Source: an uncultured Flavobacteriales bacterium
GTDB lineage: Bacteria; Bacteroidota; Bacteroidia; Flavobacteriales_E; Vicingaceae
Reading direction: 5' to 3'
Assembly: GCA_905479995.1 (NCBI GenBank)
Contig: CAJQON010000046.1
Span: 1-53,699 of the forward strand
Length of the DNA: 53,699 nt
The position numbers were made by a program, and so were the translations under genes. Positions 2,491 through 35,661 of this stretch are shown piece after piece (position 1 is the stretch's first letter; every line of letters begins with the position of its first letter). The notes under the pieces are model-generated. The model searched no databases. It saw only the letters and a program-made list of their open reading frames with translations, and was not told the origin of the DNA.

Positions 2491-3417
2491 ATGGTATTTG
2501 ATCGATTAAAAGAATTTACAAATAGTGGTTTTGGATCAAACATTGACAATGAAGGAGAACGACTTATATCTAAAAATGGTCAATTCAATATTAGAAAAGA
2601 AGGATTGAAGTTTAGCCAACGTTTCGATCTTTTTCATTTACTGATAAACATGAGTGCCACTTCATTTTTCCTGAGTCTTTTTGGTGGTTTTATAGTCTTA
2701 AACCTAGTATTTACACTACTCTATTTAGCGTTAGGTTTAGACGGATTACAAGGTATGAATGGCAACTCTAACTTCTTAGAAGCTTTTTTCTTTAGCACCC
2801 AAACCATGACTACTGTTGGATATGGAGCACTCCATCCCACAAGTAATAGCCTTTCTATTATTGCAAGCTTTGAAGCATTTATTGGCTTACTAGGGTTTGC
2901 CGTTGCAACAGGTTTATTATATGGAAGGTTTTCTAAACCTAAAACAAAAATGCTGTTTAGCAAAAATGCCTTAATTTCTCGGTACAAAGATGGTTCGGGA
3001 TTAATGGCTAGAGTTGCCAACCCAAAGAAAACTCAACTACTTAATGGCGAAGCAAAAATGATATTTTCTCAAATAGAACACGACAACGGAACTCCTAAAA
3101 GAAAGTTTTACACCTTAGACTTAGAAATGAGCCAAATTAGTTTATTCGCTACAAGTTGGACTGTTGTTCATCCAATTACCACGGAAAGCCCACTTTACCA
3201 AATAGACCATAAAACCATAACCGAAAGAAACATAGAGTTAATTTTACTGATTAATGCATATGATGAAACCTACAACCAACAAATTCATGTAAGAACATCT
3301 TATAAGCCAGCTGAAATTATTGAAAATGCTAAATTCCTTCCTATTCTTGGACATAATAAAGACAAAAAATCTTTTATAGCACTTGATAAGATTAGCGATT
3401 ACGAAATAATCAATTAG
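2491..3417 (+). CDS. Inward-rectifier K+ channel (KirBac type)
   Basis: A 308-residue protein with Kir architecture: a cytoplasmic N-terminus with N-G-Q-F-N-I-R-K-E-G, an amphipathic slide helix before TM1 (about residues 55-90), a pore helix and selectivity filter T-V-G-Y-G at residues 108-112 preceded by T-M-T, TM2 (about 125-150), and a C-terminal immunoglobulin-like IRK domain (about 160-305) with S-R-Y-K-D-G-S-G-L-M-A-R-V-A-N and T-S-W-T-V-V-H-P-I. Length and motif order match KirBac channels. It forms tetrameric K+ pores in the inner membrane. The gene is monocistronic as far as can be seen. Channel identity is secure; physiological role and gating ligands are not. Confidence 0.95.
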   Translation: MVFDRLKEFTNSGFGSNIDNEGERLISKNGQFNIRKEGLKFSQRFDLFHLLINMSATSFFLSLFGGFIVLNLVFTLLYLALGLDGLQGMNGNSNFLEAFFFSTQTMTTVGYGALHPTSNSLSIIASFEAFIGLLGFAVATGLLYGRFSKPKTKMLFSKNALISRYKDGSGLMARVANPKKTQLLNGEAKMIFSQIEHDNGTPKRKFYTLDLEMSQISLFATSWTVVHPITTESPLYQIDHKTITERNIELILLINAYDETYNQQIHVRTSYKPAEIIENAKFLPILGHNKDKKSFIALDKISDYEIIN

Positions 3418-10959: not shown

Positions 10960-13900
10960 ATGAAAAAACTAATTATCATCACATTATCCATTGCGTTATC
11001 TTTTAATATTAGCGCACAAAAAAACAAAAAGTCTACCCCAAAAAGCAAGTACAATTCAGGGCTTTTTAGCGCTTTAAAATTTAGAAGTGTTGGTCCAGCT
11101 TTTACTTCTGGTAGAGTTGCCGACATAGCAGTAAACCCAAACAACCACTCGCAATACTATTTGGCTGTAGCAAGTGGTGGAGTTTGGAAAACTGATAACT
11201 CTGGAAACACCTACTACCCTATTTTTGATGGACAAGGATCTTATTCTATTGGTTGTGTTACCATAGATCCCAACAACGAAAATGCAGTTTGGGTTGGAAC
11301 TGGCGAAAACAATAATCAACGAAGTGTTGCTTATGGTGATGGTGTATATAAGTCATTAGACGGAGGTAAATCATGGAATAATGTCGGTTTAAAAACATCT
11401 GAACACATCGGAAATATAATAGTACATCCAACCAACTCTAACATTGTTTATGTTGCAGCATATGGTCCATTATGGAAAGAAGGTGGAGAAAGAGGAGTTT
11501 ACAAAACGACAGATGGCGGAAAAACGTGGAACAGAATATTAGAAATCTCTAAACATACCGGTATAGCAGAAATTGCAATGGATCCTAGAGACCCAAATAC
11601 CATTTATGCTTCAGCGCATCAAAGAAGAAGACATGTTTTTACTTACTTAGGTGGTGGACCAGAATCTGGCTTACACAAAACTACAGATGGTGGAAAAACG
11701 TGGAAGAAAATCAACAAAGGACTTCCTGCCGTTGACAAAGGAAGAATAGGTTTAGCAATATCTCCAGTAAATCCAGATTACATTTATGCCATTGTTGAAG
11801 CTGCTCAAGGAAAAGGTGGTTTTTACAGAAGTACCAACAGAGGAGAAAGCTGGGAAAAAAGAAGCAGTTATGCCACCAGCGGAAATTACTACCAAGAAAT
11901 AGTTTGTGATCCAAAAAACAAAGATTTGATTTACTCTATGTCTACTTGGTTACATCATACAGAAGATGGTGGTAAAACCTTCAAAAAAACAGGAGAAAAA
12001 AGCAAGCACGTGGACAACCATTGCATGTGGATAGACCCTAACGACACCAAACACTGGGTAGTTGGTTGTGATGGTGGAATGTATGAAACTTGGGATGCAG
12101 CAAGCAACTGGCAGTTTAAAGCCAATTTACCTATTACACAATTTTATAAAGTTGCTACAGATAATGCCTCTCCTTTTTACAACATCTATGGAGGAACACA
12201 AGACAACAGTAGTCAAGGTGGACCATCAAGAACCACTAACAACGTGGGTATTGTAAATTCCGATTGGTACATTACCAATGGTGGTGATGGTTTTGAATCT
12301 CAAGTTGATCCCACAGATGATAACATTGTTTACGCTCAATCTCAATATGGATGGTTAGTGCGTTTCGATAAAAAGAGTGGAGAAAAAACAGCCATCAAGC
12401 CATTCCCTAAAAAAGACGGAGACGCTTTACGATGGAACTGGGATGCACCTTTATTAATTAGTCCACACAATAATAAAAGAATCTATTTTGCTGCCAACAA
12501 ACTATTTAAAAGCGATGACAGAGGAGACACATGGGATGAAATTAGTGGAGATTTAACACGTCAATTAGACCGTAATAAATTAAAAGTAATGGACCAAATA
12601 TGGAGCATTGATGCGGTTATGAAAAACAAATCGACCACCATTTTTGGCAACATCGTTGCTTTAGATGAATCTCCAAAAAAAGAAGGATTATTGTATGTTG
12701 GTACAGATGATGGATTAATTCAGGTTTCTGAAAATCAAGGACAAACTTGGACAAAACACATCGGGTTTACAGGTGTTCCGACAATGACTTATGTTAACAT
12801 GCTAAAGGCTTCAAAGCACAATGAAAATGAAGTATTTGCCATTTTTAACAACCACAAAAGAGGCGATTTTAAACCTTACGTTTTAAAAAGTAGTGACAAA
12901 GGAAAAACATGGAATTCTATTGCTGGAAATTTACCAGAAAGTGGCGCAGTTTACTGTATTGAACAAGATCATGTGAACCCAAACATCCTTTTTGTAGGAA
13001 CAGAATTTGGTGTTTTTGTAACGCTAAACGGAGGAACTCACTGGACACAATTAAAAGCTGGATTACCAACAATTGCAGTTAGAGACATGGAAATTCAGCA
13101 ACGTGAAAACGACTTGGTTTTAGGAACTTTCGGAAGAAGTTTTTACGTATTAGATGACTATTCTGCTTTAAGAGAATTGGCCGATGAAAGCTTATTAGCG
13201 AAAAGAGCACATATTTTTGACATTAAAAAAGGCTTAATGTTTAACACTAGAAACCCATTAGGCTACAAAGGGAAAAATGCACAAGGCGAAAGCTACTATG
13301 CAGCCAAAAACCCAGCAGTAGGATCGGTAATTACCTATTATTTTAGCGACTCATTAAAAACCGCTCAAGAATTAAGGCGAGCTAAGGAAAAGAAAAGTAC
13401 AGACGACCACTACCCTACTAAAGAAGAAATTAAAAAAGAAGCACAAGAAGAAAAAGCGTTCTTACTTTTTGTAATTCAAGATGAAAACGGAGATGAAATT
13501 CAAAAAATTAAAACTGATGCTGGTGCAGGAGTTAAAAAAGTAGTTTGGAATTTCAGGTACGCACCAACTGGACCAATTAAATTAAAAACAAGAAAGTCTG
13601 GTCGTTATGGATCAGAAGATGTTGGTCAACTGGCCTTACCAGGAAAATACACCGTTACCGCCTACCTAAGTAGCAACGGTAAAACTGAAAAACTAACCGA
13701 ACCTAAAGCCTTCGAAATTGAACTATTAAACAACGCTACACTTCCTGCAACGGACAAAAAGGCATTGTTAGCATTTCAAAAAGAAGTAGCCGAGTTAAGA
13801 AGATCTGCCGATGGTGCCGAACGATTACTTGGCGAAATGCACAACAAACTTAAATACATTAAAGTAGCCATAGAAACTACTCCTAATGTAGATTTAGAAC

Positions 13901-14220
13901 TTTTAAGTAAAGTAAAAAAGTTAGAGTTAGCCATGCATAAAACAAGTATTGAACTTTATGGAGATGGAGATCTATCAAAACATGAATATGAAACCTACCC
14001 TGGATTAAGCAGCAGAATCGGTATTGTAATTTATGGCATGTGGAATTCTACAGCTGCGCCAACAACAACGGCTAAAAACAACATTAAAATTGCCAAAGAA
14101 GAATATGTGCCCGTTTTAGCTGAAATTCAAAACTATGTAACCGAAGTTGCCAATTTAGAAAAAGCTTTAGGCGTTTCACCATACACTCCAGGAAGAGGAA
14201 AAGAATGGAAAAAAGATTAA
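10960..14220 (+). CDS. Secreted VPS10/BNR-repeat beta-propeller protein (sortilin-like)
   Basis: A 1086-residue protein with a signal peptide (MKKLIIITLSIALSFNISAQ). Residues ~35-760 carry Asp-box/BNR repeats: T-D-N-S-G-N-T-Y, S-L-D-G-G-K-S-W-N, T-T-D-G-G-K-T-W (twice), S-T-N-R-G-E-S-W, S-D-R-G-D-T-W, S-E-N-Q-G-Q-T-W and S-S-D-K-G-K-T-W, as in the ten-bladed VPS10 and sialidase-like propellers. The C-terminal third (V-V-W-N-F-R-Y-A-P-T-G and a P-G-K-Y-T-V strand) is Ig-like, ending in a helical tail. There is no T9SS sorting domain, so it is probably periplasmic. Such proteins are often annotated 'glycosyl hydrolase', but the repeat alone does not show catalysis. The end is followed by a strong palindrome. 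Confidence 0.9.
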   Translation: MKKLIIITLSIALSFNISAQKNKKSTPKSKYNSGLFSALKFRSVGPAFTSGRVADIAVNPNNHSQYYLAVASGGVWKTDNSGNTYYPIFDGQGSYSIGCVTIDPNNENAVWVGTGENNNQRSVAYGDGVYKSLDGGKSWNNVGLKTSEHIGNIIVHPTNSNIVYVAAYGPLWKEGGERGVYKTTDGGKTWNRILEISKHTGIAEIAMDPRDPNTIYASAHQRRRHVFTYLGGGPESGLHKTTDGGKTWKKINKGLPAVDKGRIGLAISPVNPDYIYAIVEAAQGKGGFYRSTNRGESWEKRSSYATSGNYYQEIVCDPKNKDLIYSMSTWLHHTEDGGKTFKKTGEKSKHVDNHCMWIDPNDTKHWVVGCDGGMYETWDAASNWQFKANLPITQFYKVATDNASPFYNIYGGTQDNSSQGGPSRTTNNVGIVNSDWYITNGGDGFESQVDPTDDNIVYAQSQYGWLVRFDKKSGEKTAIKPFPKKDGDALRWNWDAPLLISPHNNKRIYFAANKLFKSDDRGDTWDEISGDLTRQLDRNKLKVMDQIWSIDAVMKNKSTTIFGNIVALDESPKKEGLLYVGTDDGLIQVSENQGQTWTKHIGFTGVPTMTYVNMLKASKHNENEVFAIFNNHKRGDFKPYVLKSSDKGKTWNSIAGNLPESGAVYCIEQDHVNPNILFVGTEFGVFVTLNGGTHWTQLKAGLPTIAVRDMEIQQRENDLVLGTFGRSFYVLDDYSALRELADESLLAKRAHIFDIKKGLMFNTRNPLGYKGKNAQGESYYAAKNPAVGSVITYYFSDSLKTAQELRRAKEKKSTDDHYPTKEEIKKEAQEEKAFLLFVIQDENGDEIQKIKTDAGAGVKKVVWNFRYAPTGPIKLKTRKSGRYGSEDVGQLALPGKYTVTAYLSSNGKTEKLTEPKAFEIELLNNATLPATDKKALLAFQKEVAELRRSADGAERLLGEMHNKLKYIKVAIETTPNVDLELLSKVKKLELAMHKTSIELYGDGDLSKHEYETYPGLSSRIGIVIYGMWNSTAAPTTTAKNNIKIAKEEYVPVLAEIQNYVTEVANLEKALGVSPYTPGRGKEWKKD

Positions 14221-14288: not shown

Positions 14289-16163
14289 TCACTCATGCAA
14301 TACAACAACTTTATGAGTAAATGTATTGTTTTCAGTTGCTATGACGACAAAATAAATGCCATTATCGAAATCTCGTAAGGAAATGTTTAATTGCTTTTCA
14401 TCAGCAATACTCCGGGAATAAACCTCCTTTCCAGTAAGGTCTATTAAAGAGACATTAGTTCCTTTAATTTCTCCCAAATCAATAAACAATTCTTCATTGG
14501 CTGGATTGGGGTAAATATTAGCAACCCCATTCGCGCTAACCTCGTTTATACTTGTTCCTAAAACTTTTACACAAGCAGAAGTATCTGCACAGGCATTTAG
14601 CTGAACTATTACCGCATAGTTCCCATCTCTTTTAGGTGAATAACTATATCCTGTAGCTCCTGGTATAGCAGCATTCCCTTTGGCACAGTCTATCCATTGA
14701 TAAGCAGCAGCTAATGTATCATTAGCCCGAATTCCGTTGGTTATTAATAAAGTTGACGCATCTATTGTTGTATTTACATCGCATATCCCAAAAATATAAG
14801 CCGCTCCTGCATTAGTCAATGAATCTTGATTGTGAACATTAAAAGATTCACCCCAAGCACCCACAATGGCATTGCTATCGGAAAGCGCAACATTATAACC
14901 AAAATAACCCTTCCATTCTCTATCCTTACTCACTATTTTTTGTGTTTGAATCCAACTTCCAACAGTATTTTTTTTGTAAAAATACGCAGCTCCTCCCCAT
15001 TTTATTGAATCAGCACCCAACTCATTAAAAACATTGCCACGAGCTCCAATAAGTAACACATCACCAGAAATGGCAACAGAGCTTCCAAAAGCATTTATTA
15101 CTCCTCGATCTAAAGCAACTAATTTTTGTTGTTGATTGTAATGGCCTGAAGTATTTCGCTTAAAAACATAAGCCGCACCAGCAAGAGGCTTCTCATCACC
15201 TCCTATTGTATCAGCAAAATCTTCCCCTGAAGCTCCTACTATAAGAAAATCACCCTCCATCGTAACAGATTTACCAAAAAGCGCAGAAGTATCTCTATCT
15301 GATGCCATCACTTTTTGCTGAAAATCCCAGCTAACAGGATTTGTGTTTCGTTTAAATAGGCTTACTGATCCAGCAAAATTCATTGAGTCAATGGTGTTAG
15401 CAAAATCATCACCGAATACTCCAATTGCAATATAATCTCCAGCTATGGCAACAGAACTTCCAAAGTAATTATCTTCATGTGGCACATTTTCAATCAACTT
15501 AGCTACTTCTATCCATTTTCCAAACGAATTTTTTTCAAACACATAAGCAGCACCTACATAATTCAACCCAAGTGTATCTTTGTATTTGGCTCCAATTAGG
15601 GCATAGTTCCCGTCTATGGCAATAGAACTCCCAAAAAAATCACCACTATCTCTATCGCTAGCAACTATTTTTTGTTTTTCCACCCAAATTCCGGTTTGAA
15701 TATCTCGCTCAAAAACATAAGCTGAACCTGCTGAAACCATATAATTAGCTCCATTGGATCCAATGGTATCTCCTCCATCTCTGGGTGCACCAACAATGGC
15801 ATAGTTTCCTAATATGGCAACAACTCCAAAAAATTCATTGATTGAATCCCTGTCAGAAGCCACTAACTTTTGTGCTTCTACCCATGCTCCCTTAGCACTT
15901 TTAGTATAAATATAAGCTGCTCCTGCACCCAAAATAAAATTTGTATTGTTTGAATCACCTTTTGCAGCAGGTGCTCCAACAATTGCATAATCACCTGAAA
16001 TAGCTAGACTACTTCCAAATTGAATATTAGAATCTCTATCGGATTCAACTATCTTATTAATTAAGTTGAAATTTTGAGCATTTGCTTTATTTAAACTTGT
16101 TATACAGAGAAGGAAAGAAATTCCAACAATTAAGTATTCTTTTGTTTTGTGCCTTTTTTTCAT
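14289..16163 (-). CDS. FG-GAP beta-propeller protein with T9SS type A sorting domain
   Basis: 624 residues with an N-terminal signal (hydrophobic stretch ending N-K-A-N-A-Q). Seven FG-GAP-like repeats follow, each with F-G-x-S-V-A-I-x-G-D-Y-x-x-I-G-A, G-A-A-Y-V-F, and W-x-x-x-Q-K-x-V-A-S-D-R-D, consistent with a seven-bladed integrin-like propeller at about residues 40-480. A short cysteine-containing linker domain (about 480-545) precedes the T9SS C-terminal domain: N-I-Y-P-N-P-A-N-E-E-L, V-S-L-I-D-L-T-G-K-E-V-Y and F-D-N-G-I-Y-F-V-V-I. It is thus predicted to cross the outer membrane by T9SS and be attached to the cell surface or released; an adhesin role is plausible but inferred. Confidence 0.93.
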   Translation of the reverse strand: MKKRHKTKEYLIVGISFLLCITSLNKANAQNFNLINKIVESDRDSNIQFGSSLAISGDYAIVGAPAAKGDSNNTNFILGAGAAYIYTKSAKGAWVEAQKLVASDRDSINEFFGVVAILGNYAIVGAPRDGGDTIGSNGANYMVSAGSAYVFERDIQTGIWVEKQKIVASDRDSGDFFGSSIAIDGNYALIGAKYKDTLGLNYVGAAYVFEKNSFGKWIEVAKLIENVPHEDNYFGSSVAIAGDYIAIGVFGDDFANTIDSMNFAGSVSLFKRNTNPVSWDFQQKVMASDRDTSALFGKSVTMEGDFLIVGASGEDFADTIGGDEKPLAGAAYVFKRNTSGHYNQQQKLVALDRGVINAFGSSVAISGDVLLIGARGNVFNELGADSIKWGGAAYFYKKNTVGSWIQTQKIVSKDREWKGYFGYNVALSDSNAIVGAWGESFNVHNQDSLTNAGAAYIFGICDVNTTIDASTLLITNGIRANDTLAAAYQWIDCAKGNAAIPGATGYSYSPKRDGNYAVIVQLNACADTSACVKVLGTSINEVSANGVANIYPNPANEELFIDLGEIKGTNVSLIDLTGKEVYSRSIADEKQLNISLRDFDNGIYFVVIATENNTFTHKVVVLHE

Positions 16164-25978: not shown

Positions 25979-26002
25979 CTGTGTTATGTATTAAAATGTA
26001 AA

Positions 26003-26026
26003 AAGAGAACTCTTGTAAGAGTTCCC
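26003..26026 (-). terminator. Rho-independent terminator after the PorV/PorQ-family gene
   Basis: GAACTCT (26007-26013) pairs with AGAGTTC (26018-26024) around a 4-base loop. On the minus strand the hairpin is followed by TTTTT. It lies 28 bases past the PorV-like stop codon and just before greA, separating the TonB/T9SS operon from greA. Confidence 0.8.
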
Positions 26027-26054
26027 TTTATTATTTTGAAATATGTAATTATTA

Positions 26055-27140
26055 CTATAAGTCGAATCGAATACCAATACTATGCGTACCATCGAAATTC
26101 TCTGTCATCTGGTAAGCATAATGTAAGCCAAATGTAGTTCCTTTTTTACCTAATGGAGCAACAAAAGAAGCTCCAAATGTAGGACCTGTATTTGCTGAAG
26201 TTCTTTTAGCAGAATCAAACCAAGTTCCATCCTCTAAAACATAAGCACCTCTTACCATAAACATATTTCTAAAAGCATACTCTACACCAACTCTATATTG
26301 ATCTTTAGTAAATGAATTAGAAGTATATGTAATAGCAGGTGTAATTCTGTGATCTGAAGAAATTTCTCCACTCGTAGAATCAGCTTTAGGAGATACGTAG
26401 AAATCATAAGATCCACCAATATTTAATAATGAAGGTAGTTGATAAGCTGCAACTCTATGGTCTTGTGTTGAAGAAACATCAAAACCAACATTGTCTTGAG
26501 TAGTTGTATGAGAAAGACCATCACCAGATGCTTTCATTGTTGGTCCAACATTTTTCAATGCAATACCAAACTTAATTTCATCATTATCACCTGTTACATA
26601 ACGAACACCAGCATCAAAAGCAAAACCTCTAGCAGAAGCATTAGCAATAGACTCACTAACAATTCTAACTCCTAATCCACCAGATATACTATTTGAAAAA
26701 TTCTTTGCATATCCTACATCAATTGTAGTTAATGACGGAGAAAAAGTTCCTATTCCACCTTCAGGTAAATCAACTTGTGTAATGTCAATATCTCCAAAAC
26801 TCATTTGCATAACAGAAACACCTAAAACTCCAGATTCACCCATTTTTTGAGCAAAACCAAAAGAATTTATGTTTACATCACTACCAACAAGGTATCGTTT
26901 ATGGTTAATTAAAAGCTCTGTTTTTCGAGTAAAAGCTAATCCAGCAATATTTAAACTCATTGCCTCTAAACCTGTTATAGAAGCTGAATTGGCACCGCCA
27001 AAACCAACACTACGTGTCCAAGGATTAATTAATAGTTGAGAAGCTCCTGCTTCACCAGCTCTATCTTCATTTCCGGCATTAACGTTTGCCGAAAAGAAAG
27101 TAGTTAGCACTAACAAAATTGATATTTTAATTCTTTTCAT
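26055..27140 (-). CDS. PorV/PorQ-family outer-membrane protein
   Basis: 361 residues with a signal peptide (cleavage after N-V-N-A-G region, about residue 22). It shows the PorV/PorQ (FadL-like, DUF3308-type) pattern: A-G-A-S-Q-L-L-I-N-P-W-T-R-S-V-G-F-G-G-A, N-I-A-G-L-A-F-T-R-K-T-E-L, G-V-L-G-V-S-V, Y-A-K-N-F-S-N, G-I-A-L-K-N-V-G-P, R-V-G-V-E-Y-A-F-R, and a final strand H-S-I-G-I-R-F-D-L. In T9SS, PorV delivers cargo from the translocon to the attachment complex. Standalone paralogues next to a T9SS substrate may serve that one cargo. It is third in an operon with the TonB receptor and the giant secreted protein. Confidence 0.85.
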   Translation of the reverse strand: MKRIKISILLVLTTFFSANVNAGNEDRAGEAGASQLLINPWTRSVGFGGANSASITGLEAMSLNIAGLAFTRKTELLINHKRYLVGSDVNINSFGFAQKMGESGVLGVSVMQMSFGDIDITQVDLPEGGIGTFSPSLTTIDVGYAKNFSNSISGGLGVRIVSESIANASARGFAFDAGVRYVTGDNDEIKFGIALKNVGPTMKASGDGLSHTTTQDNVGFDVSSTQDHRVAAYQLPSLLNIGGSYDFYVSPKADSTSGEISSDHRITPAITYTSNSFTKDQYRVGVEYAFRNMFMVRGAYVLEDGTWFDSAKRTSANTGPTFGASFVAPLGKKGTTFGLHYAYQMTENFDGTHSIGIRFDL

Positions 27141-27176
27141 ATCTAAAATAATAGTAATCTTTTCTTAAAATTAATC

Positions 27177-30100
27177 TTAAAATCCATTCAAATCAGTAGG
27201 TTTCATCACACCAAACCATTTTAATGTTCTTTCTCCTACACCTGGAACATCCACATGTATTAAGTATACACCACTCGCTATTGGAATATCTGAGAAGTTC
27301 TTTAAGTCCCAATCTAAACTTGTTTTAGGATCTGCTTTAACAAATCTTCTCATTAATGTTCCTCCAACATTGTATATTGAAATAGTACATTCTTCAGGTA
27401 AGTTAGTTACCTTAATTCTGTTGTCCAATTGTCCAGTTTCATACTCTGAATAAGCATAGTAAGGGTTTGGTACAACATTAATTAAAGCAAGTGCAGAATC
27501 CATAGCAACAGTGTTCCCTAATTCTACTTCTAACCCAGTCATATCAAATTGATACATTGGTAAACCTCCATTAGATGTTGAAGAAGTTGTAAAGCTTTCA
27601 TAAGATTTTTCTACTCTTAATCTTACTCTAGCATCTGTTTCAAATAAACTATGTCCAGTTTCTACCATCGGTATTCCTGCCCATATACATGAACTCCATG
27701 CATTTGCTTTCTTTAATTCATTTACAATTCCTGTTCCTAAACTTATCTCTTGTAGCAATACTGCACATTTATCATATGATGGATATGTAACAGTACTTGG
27801 TACAGCTAATACTGATGTACTTCTAAATACATATACATAATGCTTACCTCCCATCATCAATTCGTTATTAATTCCTGCAAAACTAGTTGATGTTGGGTTC
27901 CATTTCATATCTCTTCCATTCTCTCCTGCTAACCAGCTATCCTCAGCAAAAGCAATATTTAAACGCTCTCCTGTTTCAACATTTACTGCATATCCTGGAA
28001 ACCATCCCATTCCTGTAGTAGAAACATCATCCCCTTCAGTAGCATTGTAACCAGGTTCCCCTGATTTACGTCCGCTTTTATCAACACTAAGTGAGTTTCT
28101 TATCTCTAAATGACCTGCTCCTCCTTCTGCTAAAACAACATCATTTCTAGCCTCTACAACTAGTGATCGTGTCCACTTTGTTCTATCTGATGTATAAACA
28201 ATATCTACAGAAGCTAAATTTGACAACAATGAAGTATTTACAGCTTTACCAGTAATATAGGCTGCTCCTAAAGCATCCTGTGTTCCTGATCGATCCCAAG
28301 AAACTAATCCATATGGAGCCCAATTACCGTTGTCAGCACCTTCATAAAATTGTTCTGGATCTAAAAAATAAAATCCTGTATCTCCAACTGATCCTCCTAA
28401 ACCATAATCATCATAAGGATCTGGCACATAAGGGCTTCCTGTTCCAAAGGTAGAAGTACCAGCATGAATCCAGTTTCTATCAGATTGACCTTCGCCATCA
28501 CTAAATCCACCTAACCAACGTTTTGAAGAATCTGCATAAACTACATTACCAGAAATAAATCCATTTCCTAATTCAGTATTAACCCCAGGTTGTACAACTT
28601 GTTTAATTGTTATTGATAACCCTTCATCTATAAATAACTGCTCATTCTCTAAGCTAATCATTTGATCTGCATCTGTTTCTACACCTAAAGGTGTTTTTAA
28701 TGACCAATATGCATCATCTAGATTACCTGCTGTTATAGTATCTTTAAATTTAACTGTATAAGCTCCAGCTTTAACATTTAAAGGATCTACTACTTTTACT
28801 TGTATTGGACCAAATCCTGATTGATAAGTTGGGTAATCCATAAAGTTATTTGTAGCAATATATGCTAAAGAAGCAGCAGTTAATTCTAACTCATTTCCTC
28901 CATTTCCTGCACCTTCAACTCTTGTAATTTGTGGTTGATCTCCGTAAACAGAGTTAGCATAAGTTCCGCCATTTTCTGGTGCTGGATTATGAGGTATAGC
29001 TGAGAAAGAAGTAATACCTCTACCTCCTGCCATTTTTCTACTCGAAATATAAGGCAATTTCTGACCATCTAAACCTAGTGGATCCAATTGGTCGTATTCT
29101 TTATACTCATTATATCCATAAGCAATCGCTATGTAATAATATGTCTTGTGGTTTACCAAGTTATTGTCACCTTCGGCAAATAAATCAGTTGTAAATCTAA
29201 ATGAATGTTGTATTCCTTCATCAGTTCCAACTACCATTTCTTCTGGCACATTTGCTTGTAAATTTTCATCAAAAGTATAATTAATTAATTGTGTAATTCC
29301 ATCTTTTTTATCCACCTGTGCAGCCAACCTAGACTTGTCTGGATCATTTAATTCAGAAACTGTAATTAAACCATTTTTAACTTGGAAAATTTGGTATCCT
29401 TGAAATTCGTAAAACTTCAATGAGTCTTTATCCTTATCAGATCCTTGGTAAACACCATCTAAAGTATCTGGTATAGCAATAAAAGGATTTTTTTGATTAT
29501 AAGCTTCATTATAATTATTTGAAATTTTTCTATTGCTCAAATATAAAATCAATTCTCTATCCATTTCTTGGAAAGTTACATCTGGAGCATCTGGCCCTTC
29601 TGCAATTTTAAAACAATTATCAAACAATGCTTGAGCTTTATCATCTGCAACTCTTAAGTTTTTAATAGATGAAGTATTGTCTCCTGAAATTGCTCTTGCC
29701 CATACTACTCCGACAGTTAAATCATTTACTGCTCCAGGCTCTAATGTAAAAGGTCCTGCAGATTGTAAGAATCTTCTATCTCCTTCTGGATTACCTTCTG
29801 AAGCTTCAGACCAAGGACTTGGAACTGTAACTCCTTTTGTACTCCAAAACAATGGATCAGAATCTCCAGGGAAAATTAAATCTGCTAAAACAGTTCCTCC
29901 AGTTGAAACAGCATTTCCGTTTCCACCCCAAACCATTTGAGCGCCACCGTTTCTCCATCTACCTCTCATGTAGTTGTAGTAATCTAATGCATTTGATGGA
30001 TCTCCATCTCCTGCAAATTGACCATTTGTACCAATGTTATAATAAACAAACTTACGCATCCCGTAACGCTCATTATCTACAATTCCATCTCCATAACCTA

Positions 30101-31307
30101 TTCCTAAACCTTCGTAAGGAATACCATTTGAATCTAGTGCATCTTGAACAATACTAGTTAAAGGGTTATCCACTCCATCATTATCAGCGTAAGGTCCTTC
30201 AAAGAAATCAACCCCTACTGCAGGAGGAACAGCTCCATAACCAGTAATTCCATTTGCATTTTCATCACTATTATCTCCGTTGTAACAATAACCTAATCCT
30301 CTTTGAGCATCACAACCTACATAATCATCACTAGAATTCCCTAAATCAGCATCAATCCATTGTCCAAAATATGTTTCTGTTAAAGTAAACGTAGATCGGT
30401 TAATCATTTCATAATTATAAAATGTCATGTTATTTACCTCATCATTTGTAGCAAAAGCAAATGCCTGACCTCTAATTTCCATACCAATAGAAGGTCCAGT
30501 AGACTCAGTATGCACGTTACCTTTATCATTAAAAATAAACCAAATGGTTGTATCTCCATATAATCGTACATCTCTTGTTGTTCTACAATCAATGTCACCA
30601 ATCAAATCATATTTAGGGTAATCTCCAGCAGTAGGATCGTAAAAATCATCACCATCTACATCAAAAAATGGTGCTAAGTGCCAATCTTGACCTAAAGCAG
30701 CCTTACCGTGAGCTGGCCAATCTAAAATTTCGTCTGGAATAGAATAACCTGGGTAATCGTCAACTTGAGTAGTTGTATTATTAAGTGCATCATCAACTCC
30801 AGCTTGATTCCAAGCTACAAACTCATCAACCATTGCTCTAGATACACCGTAAAATTTATCATATTCTGTACAGGTTGCAGCATCAATTTCTGCAGTAGAT
30901 TTATTTAAAGGTCCTGGCCAAAAATCATTCCCAGTATTTCTAAATGTTACAGCTGCAATTTTAAGCTGCCCATTTACATCTCTACCACCCATCCAAAGTG
31001 CACCAGAATAAATTGAAGTGTATTTCGGATCGGAAGAAACTCCCCTTTTCGGAATTTCATAATCGGCAATACCACTTGCTCTATCTTGAAACATACTTCC
31101 TCCTGTTCCTTCTACTCTAGCTCTTACATTGTTTAATTCTAAAATAGAAATGGCAACAGCTCCAGCACATCCTGCAGCAGGAGTAGGATTTGTTGTTGAA
31201 CCAGTACTATTTGAGTTGTAAGCACTTCTTGAATAAACATTCCCGACAGTAAAAACTGCAAGCAAAGTAATTGCAACCTTTTTGGTTATTGTTATCACGT
31301 TTTGCAT
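27177..31307 (-). CDS. Giant secreted protein with T9SS-type C-terminal domain
   Basis: 1376 residues, signal peptide cleaved near V-Y-S-R (residue 27). The N-terminal region has C-A-G-A-V-A-I-S-I-L-E-L-N-N-V-R-A-R and S-G-A-L-W-M-G-G-R-D, then aromatic- and Asp-rich segments with D-V-D-G-D-D-F-Y-D-P-T-A-G-D-Y-P (calcium-like D-x-D-G-D). The end is a sorting-type domain: N-V-V-P-N-P-Y-Y-A-Y-S-E-Y-E, C-T-I-S-I-Y-N-V-G-G-T-L-M-R-R-F and I-A-S-G-V-Y-L-I-H-V. It keeps an extra tail (K-W-F-G-V-M-K-P) beyond the usual end. It lies between the TonB receptor (25 bases) and the PorV-like gene (36 bases), so it is probably the surface cargo or accessory of that receptor. The ligand is unknown. Confidence 0.8.
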   Translation of the reverse strand: MQNVITITKKVAITLLAVFTVGNVYSRSAYNSNSTGSTTNPTPAAGCAGAVAISILELNNVRARVEGTGGSMFQDRASGIADYEIPKRGVSSDPKYTSIYSGALWMGGRDVNGQLKIAAVTFRNTGNDFWPGPLNKSTAEIDAATCTEYDKFYGVSRAMVDEFVAWNQAGVDDALNNTTTQVDDYPGYSIPDEILDWPAHGKAALGQDWHLAPFFDVDGDDFYDPTAGDYPKYDLIGDIDCRTTRDVRLYGDTTIWFIFNDKGNVHTESTGPSIGMEIRGQAFAFATNDEVNNMTFYNYEMINRSTFTLTETYFGQWIDADLGNSSDDYVGCDAQRGLGYCYNGDNSDENANGITGYGAVPPAVGVDFFEGPYADNDGVDNPLTSIVQDALDSNGIPYEGLGIGYGDGIVDNERYGMRKFVYYNIGTNGQFAGDGDPSNALDYYNYMRGRWRNGGAQMVWGGNGNAVSTGGTVLADLIFPGDSDPLFWSTKGVTVPSPWSEASEGNPEGDRRFLQSAGPFTLEPGAVNDLTVGVVWARAISGDNTSSIKNLRVADDKAQALFDNCFKIAEGPDAPDVTFQEMDRELILYLSNRKISNNYNEAYNQKNPFIAIPDTLDGVYQGSDKDKDSLKFYEFQGYQIFQVKNGLITVSELNDPDKSRLAAQVDKKDGITQLINYTFDENLQANVPEEMVVGTDEGIQHSFRFTTDLFAEGDNNLVNHKTYYYIAIAYGYNEYKEYDQLDPLGLDGQKLPYISSRKMAGGRGITSFSAIPHNPAPENGGTYANSVYGDQPQITRVEGAGNGGNELELTAASLAYIATNNFMDYPTYQSGFGPIQVKVVDPLNVKAGAYTVKFKDTITAGNLDDAYWSLKTPLGVETDADQMISLENEQLFIDEGLSITIKQVVQPGVNTELGNGFISGNVVYADSSKRWLGGFSDGEGQSDRNWIHAGTSTFGTGSPYVPDPYDDYGLGGSVGDTGFYFLDPEQFYEGADNGNWAPYGLVSWDRSGTQDALGAAYITGKAVNTSLLSNLASVDIVYTSDRTKWTRSLVVEARNDVVLAEGGAGHLEIRNSLSVDKSGRKSGEPGYNATEGDDVSTTGMGWFPGYAVNVETGERLNIAFAEDSWLAGENGRDMKWNPTSTSFAGINNELMMGGKHYVYVFRSTSVLAVPSTVTYPSYDKCAVLLQEISLGTGIVNELKKANAWSSCIWAGIPMVETGHSLFETDARVRLRVEKSYESFTTSSTSNGGLPMYQFDMTGLEVELGNTVAMDSALALINVVPNPYYAYSEYETGQLDNRIKVTNLPEECTISIYNVGGTLMRRFVKADPKTSLDWDLKNFSDIPIASGVYLIHVDVPGVGERTLKWFGVMKPTDLNGF

Positions 31308-31332
31308 ATTATTATCTTAAAATAATTTCTAA

Positions 31333-34300
31333 TTAAAAGTTCATTTGAATACCTAATCTAATTCTTCTAGGTAAAGCATACCTAAACCCGTTTTGCGCTT
31401 TTACAGTATATTGATCTCTAAAAGCAGTCTCGTCTATTTGATTTGTTATATACTGTTGTTGGTAAGATGCTGCTAAGAAACCATCATCTGAAGCATTACC
31501 AGTTGCTGAATAAACACTTAAAATGTTTCTAGCATTTAATAAGTTTAAAGTTTGAATGTAAACATTTAAGCTAGCTTCCTTTCTATCTTCTCCTTCACCT
31601 TTACCCCATTTAATGTCAATCGTCTTATCTAATTTCAAATCAACTGTAGTATTAAATGGTAATCTAGATGCATTTAATTGACCTTCTTGTGGAGAAGCTC
31701 CTTGAGATGTTCCTAAAACACCAGCACCATTAGATCTTGATCTTTTAGTATAAGGATTTCCTGAACCAGATCTCATTACAGCATTTAAACCAACATTTTG
31801 TAAAATGTCTTTTCCAAATAATACAGGACCATTATAGTTTTTACCAGCTCCATATCTATAATCTGCTGAAACCAAAATTCTATGTCTCTGATCTCTAGAC
31901 AATGGAATTAAAGTTCTTAAGTTACCATTTCCATTAGATACTAAGTTTTGAGAAGCAGTAGCACTAGATCCAGTACCATCAGCAAACTGTAAGGTATAAC
32001 TAGCTCTTAACGAAATATTACCTCTAGTACGTAAATCGTAAGTAACAGTCATTCCTTTTACTGTACCAAAATCTTCATTGTCAAATGTGTAATAATTTCC
32101 TGGAAAAGCACCAATCACTTGAACTGATTGAACTTGATCTCTCATTTCTCTATAGAAAGCAGAAATTTTAAGAGAAGAGTAATTATCTAATTTTTGTTGG
32201 AACCCTAATTCGTAATCAATAGTTTGTTCTGCCTTTAAGTCAGGATTATTGAAATAATTACCATATAAGTTGTTACCACCAGCACCAAACGCTAAGTAAC
32301 TAATCAAATCCATTCTGTTACCTGTTTCTGGTCTTTGTGTTAATACATCATAATGAGCAAAAAACAATGCCTCATCAGATATAGGGAAAGAAAAAGCAAT
32401 TCTAGGAGAAATATTTACTTGTGGTTCATAATCTTTAAAAGACTCACCATCTAAATCAGCAAATACATTGTTATCAGACTTATCTACTAACCATGGGTTT
32501 GGAACACCAGAAGAATGTAAAACAGAAGGATCTGCAATCTCTTCACCATCTCTGTTATACCAAACATTTCCATCTCTAAATCCAACAATATCATCTGCGT
32601 TTGGATCAGAAGCATCTGATACATAAACTACATAATCATCACCAATATTTGAAGGAATAAGTTCTGATCCAGTATTAATTTCTCCTAGTGTTTTAACTGG
32701 AAATAAAGAATACTTATCTTTTAATACAGATTGATTTGCATCATATCTATCAACACGAAGACCAACATTAAAAATTAAGTCTTCAAAAGCAAATTTATCT
32801 TGAATAAATCCAGCTACATATATTGGTTGAAAACCTGGATTCTCTCTAAGGTAATCTCCGTTATCATCTTTTGCTGTAAAGAAGTCATCAACACTAGCGT
32901 TACCTGACAACTTTTGTCCTGTATGATCATAACCAAAGTTATTTACGTATCCACCACCATTTATTAATTCATCTGGTGAAAACATTCCAATATTCCATAC
33001 ATCAGGACCATAAGAATCAAAATCAATCCAGTTTGTTCCATTTTCTAACATCCCTAAAGATGCTCTTAAGTTTTTATCAAAAGTATTATGATTATCAGCA
33101 TCATAAGCTTGAGCCAACCTATAAGCTGGTCTACTATCTATCCAAATTTCTTCAGTAAAAGTACCTTCTTCAAAACTTCTTTGTTCAATTTGTGTATTTG
33201 TTAACTGACGACCTAAGCCCCATAAACCTACAGGACTAACTGAGTAAAACTTATCTTGAGTTTGCTCATATTCAAATCCTAATTTAATAGAATGGTCTTT
33301 TATCGTTGCACTACCTTGAGCAGAAACTCTAAATTGAGATAGGTCGGTAAAAGAATAACCGTTACTCACAGTTCCCATTGAACTCCATAGATCATAAACT
33401 GCTGGTGGCGCAGAACCATTAACTAGCCCACCTCCGTTTTGCAAGTTCTCTCTATTATCCCAGTTACCTGTTGGATCGTTTTCAAAAACATCATAATAAT
33501 TAGAAGTATAGTTAGATAGGATCGGGTTTAAACTTCCGGCCTCATATTCATACAATACCGTTGCCCAGTTAGAAAAGTACCCTTCTAAAGTATCTCCTGT
33601 TAAAGCTCCAGCTGCATTCCTAACCAATGCTGTATCTACTACATTTTCATAAACTTGAACTCTTGTTGTTGTAAATTTCCCTATGTAACCATAGTGAGAC
33701 AATTGGTCTTTATGTTTTGCACTTTGTGTGGTAGAATGAAAATTAGAATAATCTACCTGAAAAGTAACGTAAGCATCACTTATTAAAGAAGGGTTATCTG
33801 GATCAGTAGAATTTTCAAAACGCTGTGTAAACCTACCATAAACTCTCCATGTTCTATCAGTTGATTGAGAATTATTATCTGAGTTATACAATGAAAATGA
33901 TCTATTGTAATTGTTTGAATTTCTCATATCGAAAGATCCTCCAATTGCTACATTAGTAGTTTTAGAGGTTGTTAAATCTATTTTCCCAGCAAGGTTCAAC
34001 GACTTTCTAGAAGCATTTATTCTAAAAGGAGTTGTTTCTAAATCATCTGCAGTAACATAACTTGCAGAATTGATAACACCACCAGCTTCACTTAAGCTCT
34101 GTATATAAGGAGTTTCATTTAATTCAGACATTAACCCATCATTCACTTTCCAGTCACCATCATAAAATGGTCTAGGATCTACTTCATGTTTTGCTTCACC
34201 TGAAAAGAAGAAACCAGCAATTGCATCCTTCTTATTTCCTAAAGAATCTTTTCTAGTTAAAATAGGACCAGAAACACTCCATCCTAATAAGTTATATCCA

Positions 34301-35064
34301 AATTTATCCAATCCAACAACATCGTCACCGGTTTTAAATCCAGATGTTAAATACTCAACTCCTCCAAACCATTCTTTAGAAGCTCCTCTAGTAGTAATAT
34401 TTACAATACCACCAGTTGCATCACCATATTGAGCAGGAATACCACCAGTAATTACCGAAACTTGCTCAATAGCAGATTTAGGTAAATTCTGAGTTCCTCT
34501 TACTTTAATACCATCTATATATGTATCTGTACCACTATTTCTTGCCCCTCTAACACTCAATCCCGTACCTCCATCATCTGCAGAATAAACCCCACCAACA
34601 GTAGCAGCTATAGAGGCTGCAGATCTTCCTGGCATTTTTTTAATATCTTCAGCTGTAACAGTTCCACCAGAAGAAGTTTGATCTGGGTCAATTAATGGAA
34701 TTTCGTAAGCAATTTTCACAAACTCATCTAAATTCTCACTTCCAGAAGAAGCTTTAATCGGTTTCATTATAGTTAACTTACCATTTGTAACAACTACATC
34801 ACTAATTTGAATTTTTTCATAACCAACATATGTAGCCTGAACTGTATAAGTACCAGGTGTTAGTGCTGGAAAAGTAAATTTACCATCAAAATCAGTCGTT
34901 ACACCAGCAATTTGAGATCCACCTTTCAACAAAACAACATTAGCAAATGCCAAAGGCTCGTCATTATCCTTATCAAGCATCTTTCCCTTGATTGTTCCTG
35001 TCTGTCCAAAAGCGAATGAAGCCACCAACATAACAGATACTAAAACAGCTAGTTTTCTTAACAT
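31333..35064 (-). CDS. TonB-dependent receptor with carboxypeptidase-regulatory-like N-terminus
   Basis: 1243 residues. Order: signal peptide (to F-A-F-G-Q); a CarboxypepD_reg-like Ig domain at about residues 22-110 (G-T-I-K-G-K-M-L-D-K-D-N-D-E-P-L-A-F-A-N and Y-V-G-Y-E-K-I); plug domain at about 130-235 (L-S-V-R-G-A-R-N-S-G-T-D-T-Y-I-D-G-I, A-Q-Y-G-D-A-T-G-G-I-V-N-I-T-T-R-G); then a long beta-barrel ending R-I-R-L-G-I-Q-M-N-F with terminal Phe. It is SusC-like in outline but no SusD-family gene follows; a giant T9SS-type protein takes that place. It imports a ligand across the outer membrane using TonB-ExbBD energy. A consensus promoter lies upstream. Confidence 0.95.
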   Translation of the reverse strand: MLRKLAVLVSVMLVASFAFGQTGTIKGKMLDKDNDEPLAFANVVLLKGGSQIAGVTTDFDGKFTFPALTPGTYTVQATYVGYEKIQISDVVVTNGKLTIMKPIKASSGSENLDEFVKIAYEIPLIDPDQTSSGGTVTAEDIKKMPGRSAASIAATVGGVYSADDGGTGLSVRGARNSGTDTYIDGIKVRGTQNLPKSAIEQVSVITGGIPAQYGDATGGIVNITTRGASKEWFGGVEYLTSGFKTGDDVVGLDKFGYNLLGWSVSGPILTRKDSLGNKKDAIAGFFFSGEAKHEVDPRPFYDGDWKVNDGLMSELNETPYIQSLSEAGGVINSASYVTADDLETTPFRINASRKSLNLAGKIDLTTSKTTNVAIGGSFDMRNSNNYNRSFSLYNSDNNSQSTDRTWRVYGRFTQRFENSTDPDNPSLISDAYVTFQVDYSNFHSTTQSAKHKDQLSHYGYIGKFTTTRVQVYENVVDTALVRNAAGALTGDTLEGYFSNWATVLYEYEAGSLNPILSNYTSNYYDVFENDPTGNWDNRENLQNGGGLVNGSAPPAVYDLWSSMGTVSNGYSFTDLSQFRVSAQGSATIKDHSIKLGFEYEQTQDKFYSVSPVGLWGLGRQLTNTQIEQRSFEEGTFTEEIWIDSRPAYRLAQAYDADNHNTFDKNLRASLGMLENGTNWIDFDSYGPDVWNIGMFSPDELINGGGYVNNFGYDHTGQKLSGNASVDDFFTAKDDNGDYLRENPGFQPIYVAGFIQDKFAFEDLIFNVGLRVDRYDANQSVLKDKYSLFPVKTLGEINTGSELIPSNIGDDYVVYVSDASDPNADDIVGFRDGNVWYNRDGEEIADPSVLHSSGVPNPWLVDKSDNNVFADLDGESFKDYEPQVNISPRIAFSFPISDEALFFAHYDVLTQRPETGNRMDLISYLAFGAGGNNLYGNYFNNPDLKAEQTIDYELGFQQKLDNYSSLKISAFYREMRDQVQSVQVIGAFPGNYYTFDNEDFGTVKGMTVTYDLRTRGNISLRASYTLQFADGTGSSATASQNLVSNGNGNLRTLIPLSRDQRHRILVSADYRYGAGKNYNGPVLFGKDILQNVGLNAVMRSGSGNPYTKRSRSNGAGVLGTSQGASPQEGQLNASRLPFNTTVDLKLDKTIDIKWGKGEGEDRKEASLNVYIQTLNLLNARNILSVYSATGNASDDGFLAASYQQQYITNQIDETAFRDQYTVKAQNGFRYALPRRIRLGIQMNF

Positions 35065-35113
35065 ATTCCGAATTTTAATCTTTAAAAATATTTATAGTGC
35101 AATAATAGAGGCG

Positions 35114-35146
35114 TAAAGATATATAATATAAACTTTGGAAACCAAA
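35114..35146 (-). promoter_or_regulatory. Promoter of the TonB receptor/T9SS/PorV-like operon
   Basis: On the minus strand TTTG (35143-35146) is followed after 21 bases by TATCTTTA (35114-35121), matching TTTG-N19-21-TAnnTTTG except for the last base. The predicted leader is about 43 bases before the ATG at 35064. Confidence 0.65.
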
Positions 35147-35175: not shown

Positions 35176-35220
35176 TATCTTATTTAATAGCCATTTTATA
35201 AACGGCTATTAAATAAGATA
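35176..35220. terminator. Perfect 17-bp-stem hairpin upstream of the TonB receptor
   Basis: TATCTTATTTAATAGCC (35176-35192) is exactly inverted at 35204-35220 around an 11-base loop. It lies 65 bases past the stop of the acidic lipoprotein and just upstream of the receptor promoter. Read on the minus strand the stem is followed by TTTATAG, so it may terminate the lipoprotein transcript; the plus-strand side is followed by six A. The stem has only three G:C pairs near the loop plus one further out. Confidence 0.6.
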
Positions 35221-35284: not shown

Positions 35285-35647
35285 CTACCTTCCTCCACCG
35301 CCAAGCACAGGAGAATCAGTGATTGTTCCAACAACAACTCCAGAACCGACAACTACGCTAGTACCAGGACCTACGTCAGCATCATCATCATCTTCATTGT
35401 CATCTCCACCAATTATACCTCCATCAGACCCATCTCCAGAACCGTCATCACCTATTCCATCACCTATTCCATCACCTAGATCGTCCCCCAGAACAATACC
35501 TTCTCTCATACTTGAGTGATTAACTTGCTCATTAGAAACGCCCTCATCAAACTGAGGAACTGGCTCATTACCTTTTCTACAAGAACTCATAGATACAACT
35601 ATAGTTACTAGAAAAAGTATTAGATATTTAACTGAAATAAGTTTCAT
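35285..35647 (-). CDS. Gly/Asp-rich acidic small lipoprotein
   Basis: 120 residues from the ATG at 35647 (an ATG three codons earlier at 35656 would place the -7 box inside the gene). The signal ends S-M-S-S-C-R-K-G, a lipobox-like site. The mature protein has a repetitive acidic stretch of G-D-D-L-G-D-G-I-G-D-G-I-G-D-D units running into E-D-D-D-D-A-D-V, then a Gly/Val-rich tail ending G-G-G-G-R. The D-G-x-G-D repeats might bind calcium, but the spacing does not match a known repeat. No family is recognised. It lies just upstream of the TonB operon, separated by a hairpin and that operon's promoter. Confidence 0.7.
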   Translation of the reverse strand: MKLISVKYLILFLVTIVVSMSSCRKGNEPVPQFDEGVSNEQVNHSSMREGIVLGDDLGDGIGDGIGDDGSGDGSDGGIIGGDDNEDDDDADVGPGTSVVVGSGVVVGTITDSPVLGGGGR

Positions 35648-35653
35648 TACACA

Positions 35654-35661
35654 CAAAAATA
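35654..35661 (-). promoter_or_regulatory. Candidate -7 box (TATTTTTG) abutting the acidic lipoprotein start
   Basis: Exact TAnnTTTG on the minus strand ending 6 bases before the ATG at 35647, the same geometry as at yjbR and ruvC. No -33 TTTG at the usual spacing. Confidence 0.4.

Follow-up and report, generated by a model that had tools for sequence, protein, structure and literature searches.

SusC-SusD (RagA-RagB) systems are TonB transporters with a surface lid. We describe three adjoining genes within a 53,699 bp stretch of an uncultured Flavobacteriales bacterium (Vicingaceae; contig CAJQON010000046.1; the whole stretch is called the window), which encode a TonB-dependent receptor (T), a giant surface protein (G) and a barrel of the PorV/PorQ family (P). 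It is somewhat probable, in our judgment, that T, G and P form one TonB-driven outer-membrane complex, in which G is a lid that is delivered by the type IX secretion system (T9SS), is anchored on P and does the job of SusD. The trio resembles SusC-SusD in that a TonB receptor with an N-terminal CarboxypepD domain shares an operon with a large surface protein, and in being multicopy with variable partners in some genomes; it differs in that T falls below the SusC/RagA model, that its partner G is not a SusD and has a T9SS-type sorting domain, and that a gene for a PorV-family barrel follows the gene for G. The BtuB-BtuG "pedal bin" is also described as a TonB transporter with a surface lid, BtuG being a lipoprotein (PMC10404256). 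There, as proposed here, the lid is not called SusD; in contrast to BtuG, G would be a T9SS-type protein encoded beside a PorV-like barrel gene.

The G and P genes recall a second group of systems. PorU-PorV and PorZ-PorQ, reported as 1:1 subcomplexes (PMC5562754), each pair a secreted protein that retains its C-terminal domain (CTD) with a PorV-family barrel, and it is their CTDs that the CTD of G most resembles; unlike them, the trio has a TonB receptor, and G and P lie below the PorZ/PorU and the PorV/PorQ/PorV2 cut-offs, respectively. Type B proteins have been proposed to anchor by binding PorP-like barrels, and in the type B systems as reported the cargo gene often lies directly before its own barrel gene, the pair deciding surface location (PMC9143113, PMC12618676); the trio differs in that the CTD of G has the type A/PorZ fold, P is of the PorV family, and a TonB receptor gene stands in front. 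PorU2-PorV2 (NCBIfam NF052324 / NF052325, "putative") again couples a large CTD protein with a PorV-family barrel encoded by a neighbouring gene, in the same genome as the window, but there the CTD protein has a PorU-like N-domain and no receptor gene adjoins, and PorV2 lies off the branch of P. A literature search for PorU2/PorV2 returned three papers, none by title about the pair.

The trio joins these two designs, a CTD protein on a PorV-type barrel and a TonB transporter with a surface lid. A TonB-T9SS-PorV module was not found described in the open-access literature as searched by title and abstract (subscription papers and preprints were outside this search), and the accessible portion of PMC12611786 describes no such module linking PorV or the T9SS to SusCD. 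Melioribacter was considered as a precedent and rejected, the operon reported there being SusCDE and not a triad (accessible text of PMC3534657). Taken singly, the components are of familiar kinds; what appears new is that the three are combined, and how widely and in how many copies the combination occurs.

The giant protein, the receptor and the barrel

On its predicted structure, the C-terminus of G is an immunoglobulin (Ig)-like beta-sandwich sorting domain of the T9SS. The PorZ chain aligned to it above all other chains (Z 10.9; 90 residues, 2.3 A), bearing out the sequence-only reading made earlier of this DNA, which had taken the giant protein for T9SS-type, and PorZ was the best Foldseek match (E 2.3e-5). 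Among 27 CTDs examined at E <= 0.1, the PorZ model and Por_Secre_tail each matched all 27 and the PorU model 26. When the CTD profile was run against the window's own genome, PorU2 and PorU (E 5e-4) were the only matches below 0.1 besides G itself, followed by two matches near E 0.2; when run against 367 open reading frames (ORFs) from selected loci, a set that covers 30 of the 133 TIGR04183 matches and a small number of further ones, the next ranks were PorU2, PorU and PorZ. Seven of those 133 matches ended at model position 61 or earlier, and PorU, PorU2, PorZ and G were among them; the remaining three were a type A tail (L211), a presumed type B tail (L213) and a near-N-terminal match in an 808-residue ORF (L212). 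PorA, PorU and PorZ are reported to retain their CTDs, and the lengths given are 67-88 residues for cleaved CTDs, 96 for PorZ and 108 for PorU (PMC11285876); the CTD of G has 98 residues counted from its VPNP motif. Within it K1363 is nearly invariant, and the tail beyond this residue is conserved, D1372 and L1373 being invariant. Counting back from the ends of the structural alignment, we infer that K1363 corresponds to RemZ Lys1110, a lysine reported to be bonded to PorV (PMC10994853).

The predicted structure of G had a pLDDT of 87.3 for residues 40-590 and 86.1 for residues 560-1376. The best fold match of the N-domain was 9ju0 (Z 18.5 over 255 residues, 3.3 A, 12% identity). No helical catalytic barrel was seen in the two predicted models of G, since the remainder of both was mostly beta, and fibronectin-like regions were among the fold matches of this large beta-rich protein; that the N-domain might bind carbohydrate is a guess. 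Sequence comparison gave no Pfam match up to E = 1 and, against solved structures, only chance renin matches (E >= 0.09); the full G profile matched no solved structure up to E = 0.1, and fold comparison was informative instead. Second giant copies, then shorter proteins with the same N-domain, were seen at L034:8074-12076, L038:14052-16049, L039:4134-6197 and L040:3100-5184. Three of the shorter proteins, traced to their C-terminal ends, have tails that look type A; the one scored, an N-domain paralogue in L034, has a true type A tail (TIGR04183, 45.4 bits), and the N-domain therefore also seems to serve as ordinary T9SS cargo.

T exceeded the Pfam cut-offs for CarboxypepD_reg, for Plug (PF07715, 45.0 bits; cut-off 23.9) and for the TonB barrel (PF00593, 33.6 bits; cut-off 27). 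In 28 of 34 aligned receptors a Y-x-x-P-L-I segment lies ahead of the plug, a candidate TonB box by its position. Membership of T in the SusC/RagA family was rejected, as TIGR04056 (cut-off 368 bits) gave no match to the window's receptor up to E = 1; five receptors from other classes scored 57-84 bits with the same model. The "SusC-like shape" ascribed to the receptor was consequently only partly right: the three domains are there, and the SusC/RagA match is not.

The third gene had been called a PorV/PorQ paralogue, and P indeed belongs to NCBIfam PorV_fam (NF033709; 140.4 bits, cut-off 90). Its scores with the PorV, PorQ and PorV2 equivalogs (64.5, 74.4 and 47.7 bits) reached none of their cut-offs (250, 220 and 325), and its 31 bits with the PorP/SprF type B shuttle model TIGR03519 were below 90.55. 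Of the 35 rows in a PorV-family tree, 31 were trio members, and these fell on one side of a moderately supported branch (88/90), with PorV2 and P on different branches; the tree has four non-trio members only and its other branches are long. There is moderate support for a P lineage set apart from PorV, PorQ and PorV2. The window's genome (G000) has a separate PorV beside PorU, PorV2 beside PorU2, PorQ, and also PorZ. As for the dedicated shuttle that had been proposed for the giant protein, a canonical PorV is encoded in the same genome, and P may be a final anchor rather than a shuttle. On contig C57 of this genome (L203:5113-11363), PorV2 stands directly before a 1680-residue PorU2 with a PorU-type CTD.

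Conservation, multiplication and co-occurrence of the trio

The pattern was found in 115 stretches of the genome contig collection, 113 of which encode a relative of the giant; 80 were retained, and exclusion of L096, where the giant is split into two ORFs, left 79 loci with a giant that could be scored. Profiles A1, A2, A3 and A6 rest on selections of 45, 34, 34 and 27 sequences, respectively, rather than on all loci, and whole-genome searches gave scores for the best first-look candidates of each genome only. Adjacency was counted in the named genome collection alone, since another count (81/95) mixed collections with duplicates. Among named loci with room for the neighbour, T adjoined G in 69 of 75, P adjoined G in 61 of 66, and both did so in 59; the median gaps were 21 bases (T-G) and 27 bases (G-P), and greA lay 3' of P in 56 of 56. 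The exceptions to adjacency were L034, L038, L039, L040, L049, L078, L079 and L104; that of L078 is a split gene, and the isolates of L034, L038 and L079 have another giant beside T (L041, L037 and L069, respectively). A match to the giant was present in all 46 genomes of the host order, some of these being fragments or N-domain paralogues only. In other classes, 20 stretches were chosen around strong matches: 17 contained the complete trio, two were cut by contig ends and one (L158) had giants that lacked partners. The supposition that the three genes belong together thus held up, the order being kept in most loci and presence being all-or-none in Bacteroidia. Giant genes broken into two ORFs were seen in otherwise intact loci (L096:10010-14143, L078:4620-14195), and L078 has a second giant copy 3' of P that is split too.

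Co-occurrence was assessed in 296 genomes of the phylum that were at least 90% complete. The giant profile matched 159 of these at E <= 0.001, weak matches included, and SprA, the T9SS channel, matched 228; SprA was found in every one of the 159 giant-positive genomes, and the giant was matched in none of the 68 SprA-negative genomes. The window's class, taken to be Bacteroidia from its named relatives, is represented by 73 genomes, counted by eye. Eight had strong matches to all three proteins (giant E < 1e-200, P < 1e-100, T = 0) versus 65 without the trio, in which the best values were 5.5e-8 for the giant, 1.8e-19 for P and 3.5e-34 for T; SprA was matched in 62 of the 65.

The layout was multiplied in other classes. 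PorV-family matches (E <= 0.001, fragments included) numbered 31, 21, 11, 10 and 8 in genomes G288, G111, G299, G228 and G063, respectively. For some of these genes the surrounding stretch was taken (G288, 20; G111, 13; G299, 4; G228, 3), and PorV-like ORFs below 1e-10 were scored: receptor, CTD gene and PorV-like gene followed one another in that order in 15/20 cases in G288, 7/13 in G111, and 4/7 in G299 and G228, so that a receptor gene completed the triad for 26 of 40 PorV-like genes. These counts include orthologues of the window trio (L231, L242); in L227 the CTD gene and P are separated by a small ORF. Proteins in the middle of the triads were 643-1282 residues long, and a Pfam scan of ten from other triads found none over cut-off, with two weak CHU_C matches. 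A profile of the triad-type CTD that includes distant trio CTDs picked out 30 ORFs (below 1e-10) in the stretches, and for 28 of these the next gene downstream was PorV-like, versus 2 of 41 for other T9SS-type tails. Since each stretch had been chosen around a PorV-like gene, it is the difference between these two tail types that carries information.

SusD_RagB (PF07980) was matched 0 times in G000 (98.2% complete), G288 and G111, other SusD Pfam families being outside this search, and 24, 13, 19 and 38 times in the Bacteroidia genomes G203, G109, G052 and G066, respectively. The suggestion that the giant protein replaces SusD is therefore supported at the level of genomes insofar as the window's genome and two genomes with many triads have no SusD_RagB, and is weakened insofar as T is not a SusC/RagA by the curated model.

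A proposed uptake complex and its rivals

In the uptake complex that we favour, G would cross the outer membrane through the T9SS, keep its CTD as PorU and PorZ do, and stay docked through this domain on P, its cognate barrel; the large outer part of G would lie over T and capture substrate, which T would import with TonB energy. The complex would work like SusC-SusD or BtuB-BtuG, with a protein domain, seated on a second barrel, holding the lid in place of a lipid, and the triads of other classes would be repeated copies of this layout that differ in the middle protein, which is what substrate-specific lids would lead one to expect. PorU-PorV and PorU2-PorV2, as neighbouring pairs in the window's genome, are precedents for G and P. 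The module had been called self-contained, which was too strong because export would need the genome's T9SS. We put forward more tentatively, as falling a little short of an even chance, that such triads are a class of TonB uptake system found throughout the phylum, each made of a receptor, a lid delivered by the T9SS and an anchor barrel of the PorV family; this class would predate SusCD or run parallel to it, be multicopy in several Bacteroidota classes and replace SusCD where there is little or no SusD, and the window locus would be its most widely kept member. If true, type IX secretion, known for enzymes, adhesins and gliding, would also build nutrient-uptake machines, and PorV-family barrels would serve not only as shuttles but also to anchor surface lids; many CTD genes without a Pfam family and many unannotated "PorV/PorQ family" genes would be given a role, the way SusD-less Bacteroidota might feed would be explained, and the receptor-plus-lid design would have a testable origin.

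The same genes could instead encode an accessory T9SS complex of the attachment type, with G-P standing beside PorU-PorV, PorU2-PorV2 and PorZ-PorQ and with T coupling TonB energy to the processing, release or quality control of cargo. The CTD of G, which in fold is nearest to PorZ and in sequence, within the window's genome, to PorU2 and PorU, would suit this, as would the presence of SprA in every giant-positive genome and the single syntenic locus beside greA among the named loci. The trio is nevertheless absent from 65 of 73 Bacteroidia genomes, and since nearly all of these carry SprA it is dispensable for the T9SS; multicopy triads with different middle proteins also suit substrate-specific systems better. 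For these two reasons we favour uptake over a core role in secretion and regard the accessory complex as unlikely. Were G an adhesin or coat protein that P anchors at the surface, with T merely co-transcribed (e.g. in response to the same nutrient), its size, its beta-rich build and its fibronectin-like regions would be in keeping, and a close precedent exists in type B adhesins that have cognate PorP/SprF barrels (PMC12618676, PMC9143113); an incidental neighbour, however, would not keep its place beside G in most named loci, nor complete the triad for 26 of 40 PorV-like genes, and we give this explanation little credence. It is more doubtful still, to the point of being very improbable, that T works outward to export or assemble G, like Oar, the TonB-dependent transporter needed for PopC secretion in Myxococcus: T does share the CarboxypepD_reg, Plug and barrel layout of Oar, but this layout is not specific, being reported as dominant among Bacteroidetes TonB-dependent transporters (PMC6434023), and G has a T9SS-type signal fold of its own and occurs only with SprA in the sample.

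Several observations weigh against the uptake complex or its parts. No degradative enzymes or importers were recognised beside the window trio, which is the main gap, and giants without adjoining T and P exist (L158, L034, L038, L049). The SprA-negative genomes listed belong to one family in 17 of 20 cases, and the correlation of SprA with the giant is therefore partly phylogeny; Chlorobiota are reported to be without both SusCD and SprA (PMC12611786), which bears on this caveat. PF07980 counts do not fall steadily, with 1 in G299, 2 in G228 and 3 in G063, and G203 and G109 carry one trio plus 13-24 SusD. P exceeded the low Pfam PorP_SprF cut-off (27.7 vs 22.3) and was just under that of Pfam PorV (25.5 vs 27). 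As for the CTD of G, the PorU alignment (Z 8.8) was tied with peptidase Vpr, and the CTDs of mirolase, RemA and RemZ (Z 7.2-7.8) were level with unrelated Ig/FN3 domains; FlgD models were matched by 22 of the 27 CTDs (E <= 0.1), so that part of the resemblance is the general Ig-like fold. G stayed below the type A cut-off of 23 bits (TIGR04183, Por_Secre_tail) with 17.2 bits for the whole protein, 20.7 in the genome search and 21.1 for the domain alone, and also below the PorZ and PorU model cut-offs. PorZ was not among the five matches of the CTD profile in the window's own genome, and in the 367-ORF search its lead over a type A tail was slight (7.6e-4 vs 1.3e-3).

Layout of the locus and neighbouring genes

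Table 1. Features of the trio locus, with positions numbered along the window.
Feature	Position	Strand	Basis
T, TonB-dependent receptor, 1243 residues	31333..35064	minus	ORF and Pfam domains
G, giant surface protein, 1376 residues	27177..31307	minus	ORF
P, PorV/PorQ-family outer-membrane barrel, 361 residues	26055..27140	minus	ORF, NCBIfam and tree
G residues about 40-590, N-terminal domain with GH15/65/94/116-type supersandwich	29538..31190	minus	Predicted model
G residues 1279-1376, T9SS-type C-terminal sorting domain, PorZ/PorU-like, tail ending D-L-x-x-F	27180..27473	minus	Fold and sequence
Probable promoter element TTTG-N21-TATCTTTA	35114..35146	minus	Kind found in 8/8 genomes compared
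Conserved leader (CGCCTCT ... TTGCAC) directly after promoter element	35097..35113	minus	Cross-genome comparison
Intrinsic-terminator-like hairpin 3' of P	26002..26029	minus	12 pairs, then T-rich tail

The ORF list agreed with the three minus-strand genes and the gaps of 25 bases (T-G) and 36 bases (G-P) given by the sequence-only reading. The terminator it placed at 26003-26026 was present as a hairpin with a T-rich tail, at slightly different coordinates. The single promoter it assigned is of what we take to be the Bacteroidota-type consensus. The bare motif was at chance level (7 matches in the window vs 6.69 +/- 2.54 in shuffles), and a sigma-70-type scan found 33 sites in the region, fewer than the 45.6 in shuffles; significance of the bare motif was rejected for this reason and conservation was used instead. 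As the element lies upstream of T, followed by the conserved leader, in 8 of 8 genomes (the window and seven chosen named relatives), it is probably real.

Upstream of T, a small lipoprotein-like, Gly/Asp-rich ORF (35285-35656) ends before a 20-pair hairpin (35176-35220), and ORFs resembling it, with a GGDDNEDDD motif, occupy the same position in L032, L033, L035 and L036. The neighbours of the window trio, as judged from sequence, are presumably greA-HIT-ruvC. A common fourth gene after P in other classes was considered and dropped, since among the ten genes scanned the products varied (GWxTD domain, TPR-cytochrome, ASPIC, NHL or nothing). In four genomes of other classes (L153, L159, L160 and L161) the trio is followed by a gene for a TPR protein that has cytochrome c motifs, and in three more (L148, L165 and L166) by one for a GWxTD-domain protein. 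Genes elsewhere in the window encode an inward-rectifier-type potassium channel (2491-3417), a sortilin/BNR-repeat protein (10960-14220) and, at 14289-16163, an FG-GAP protein whose T9SS tail is of type A.

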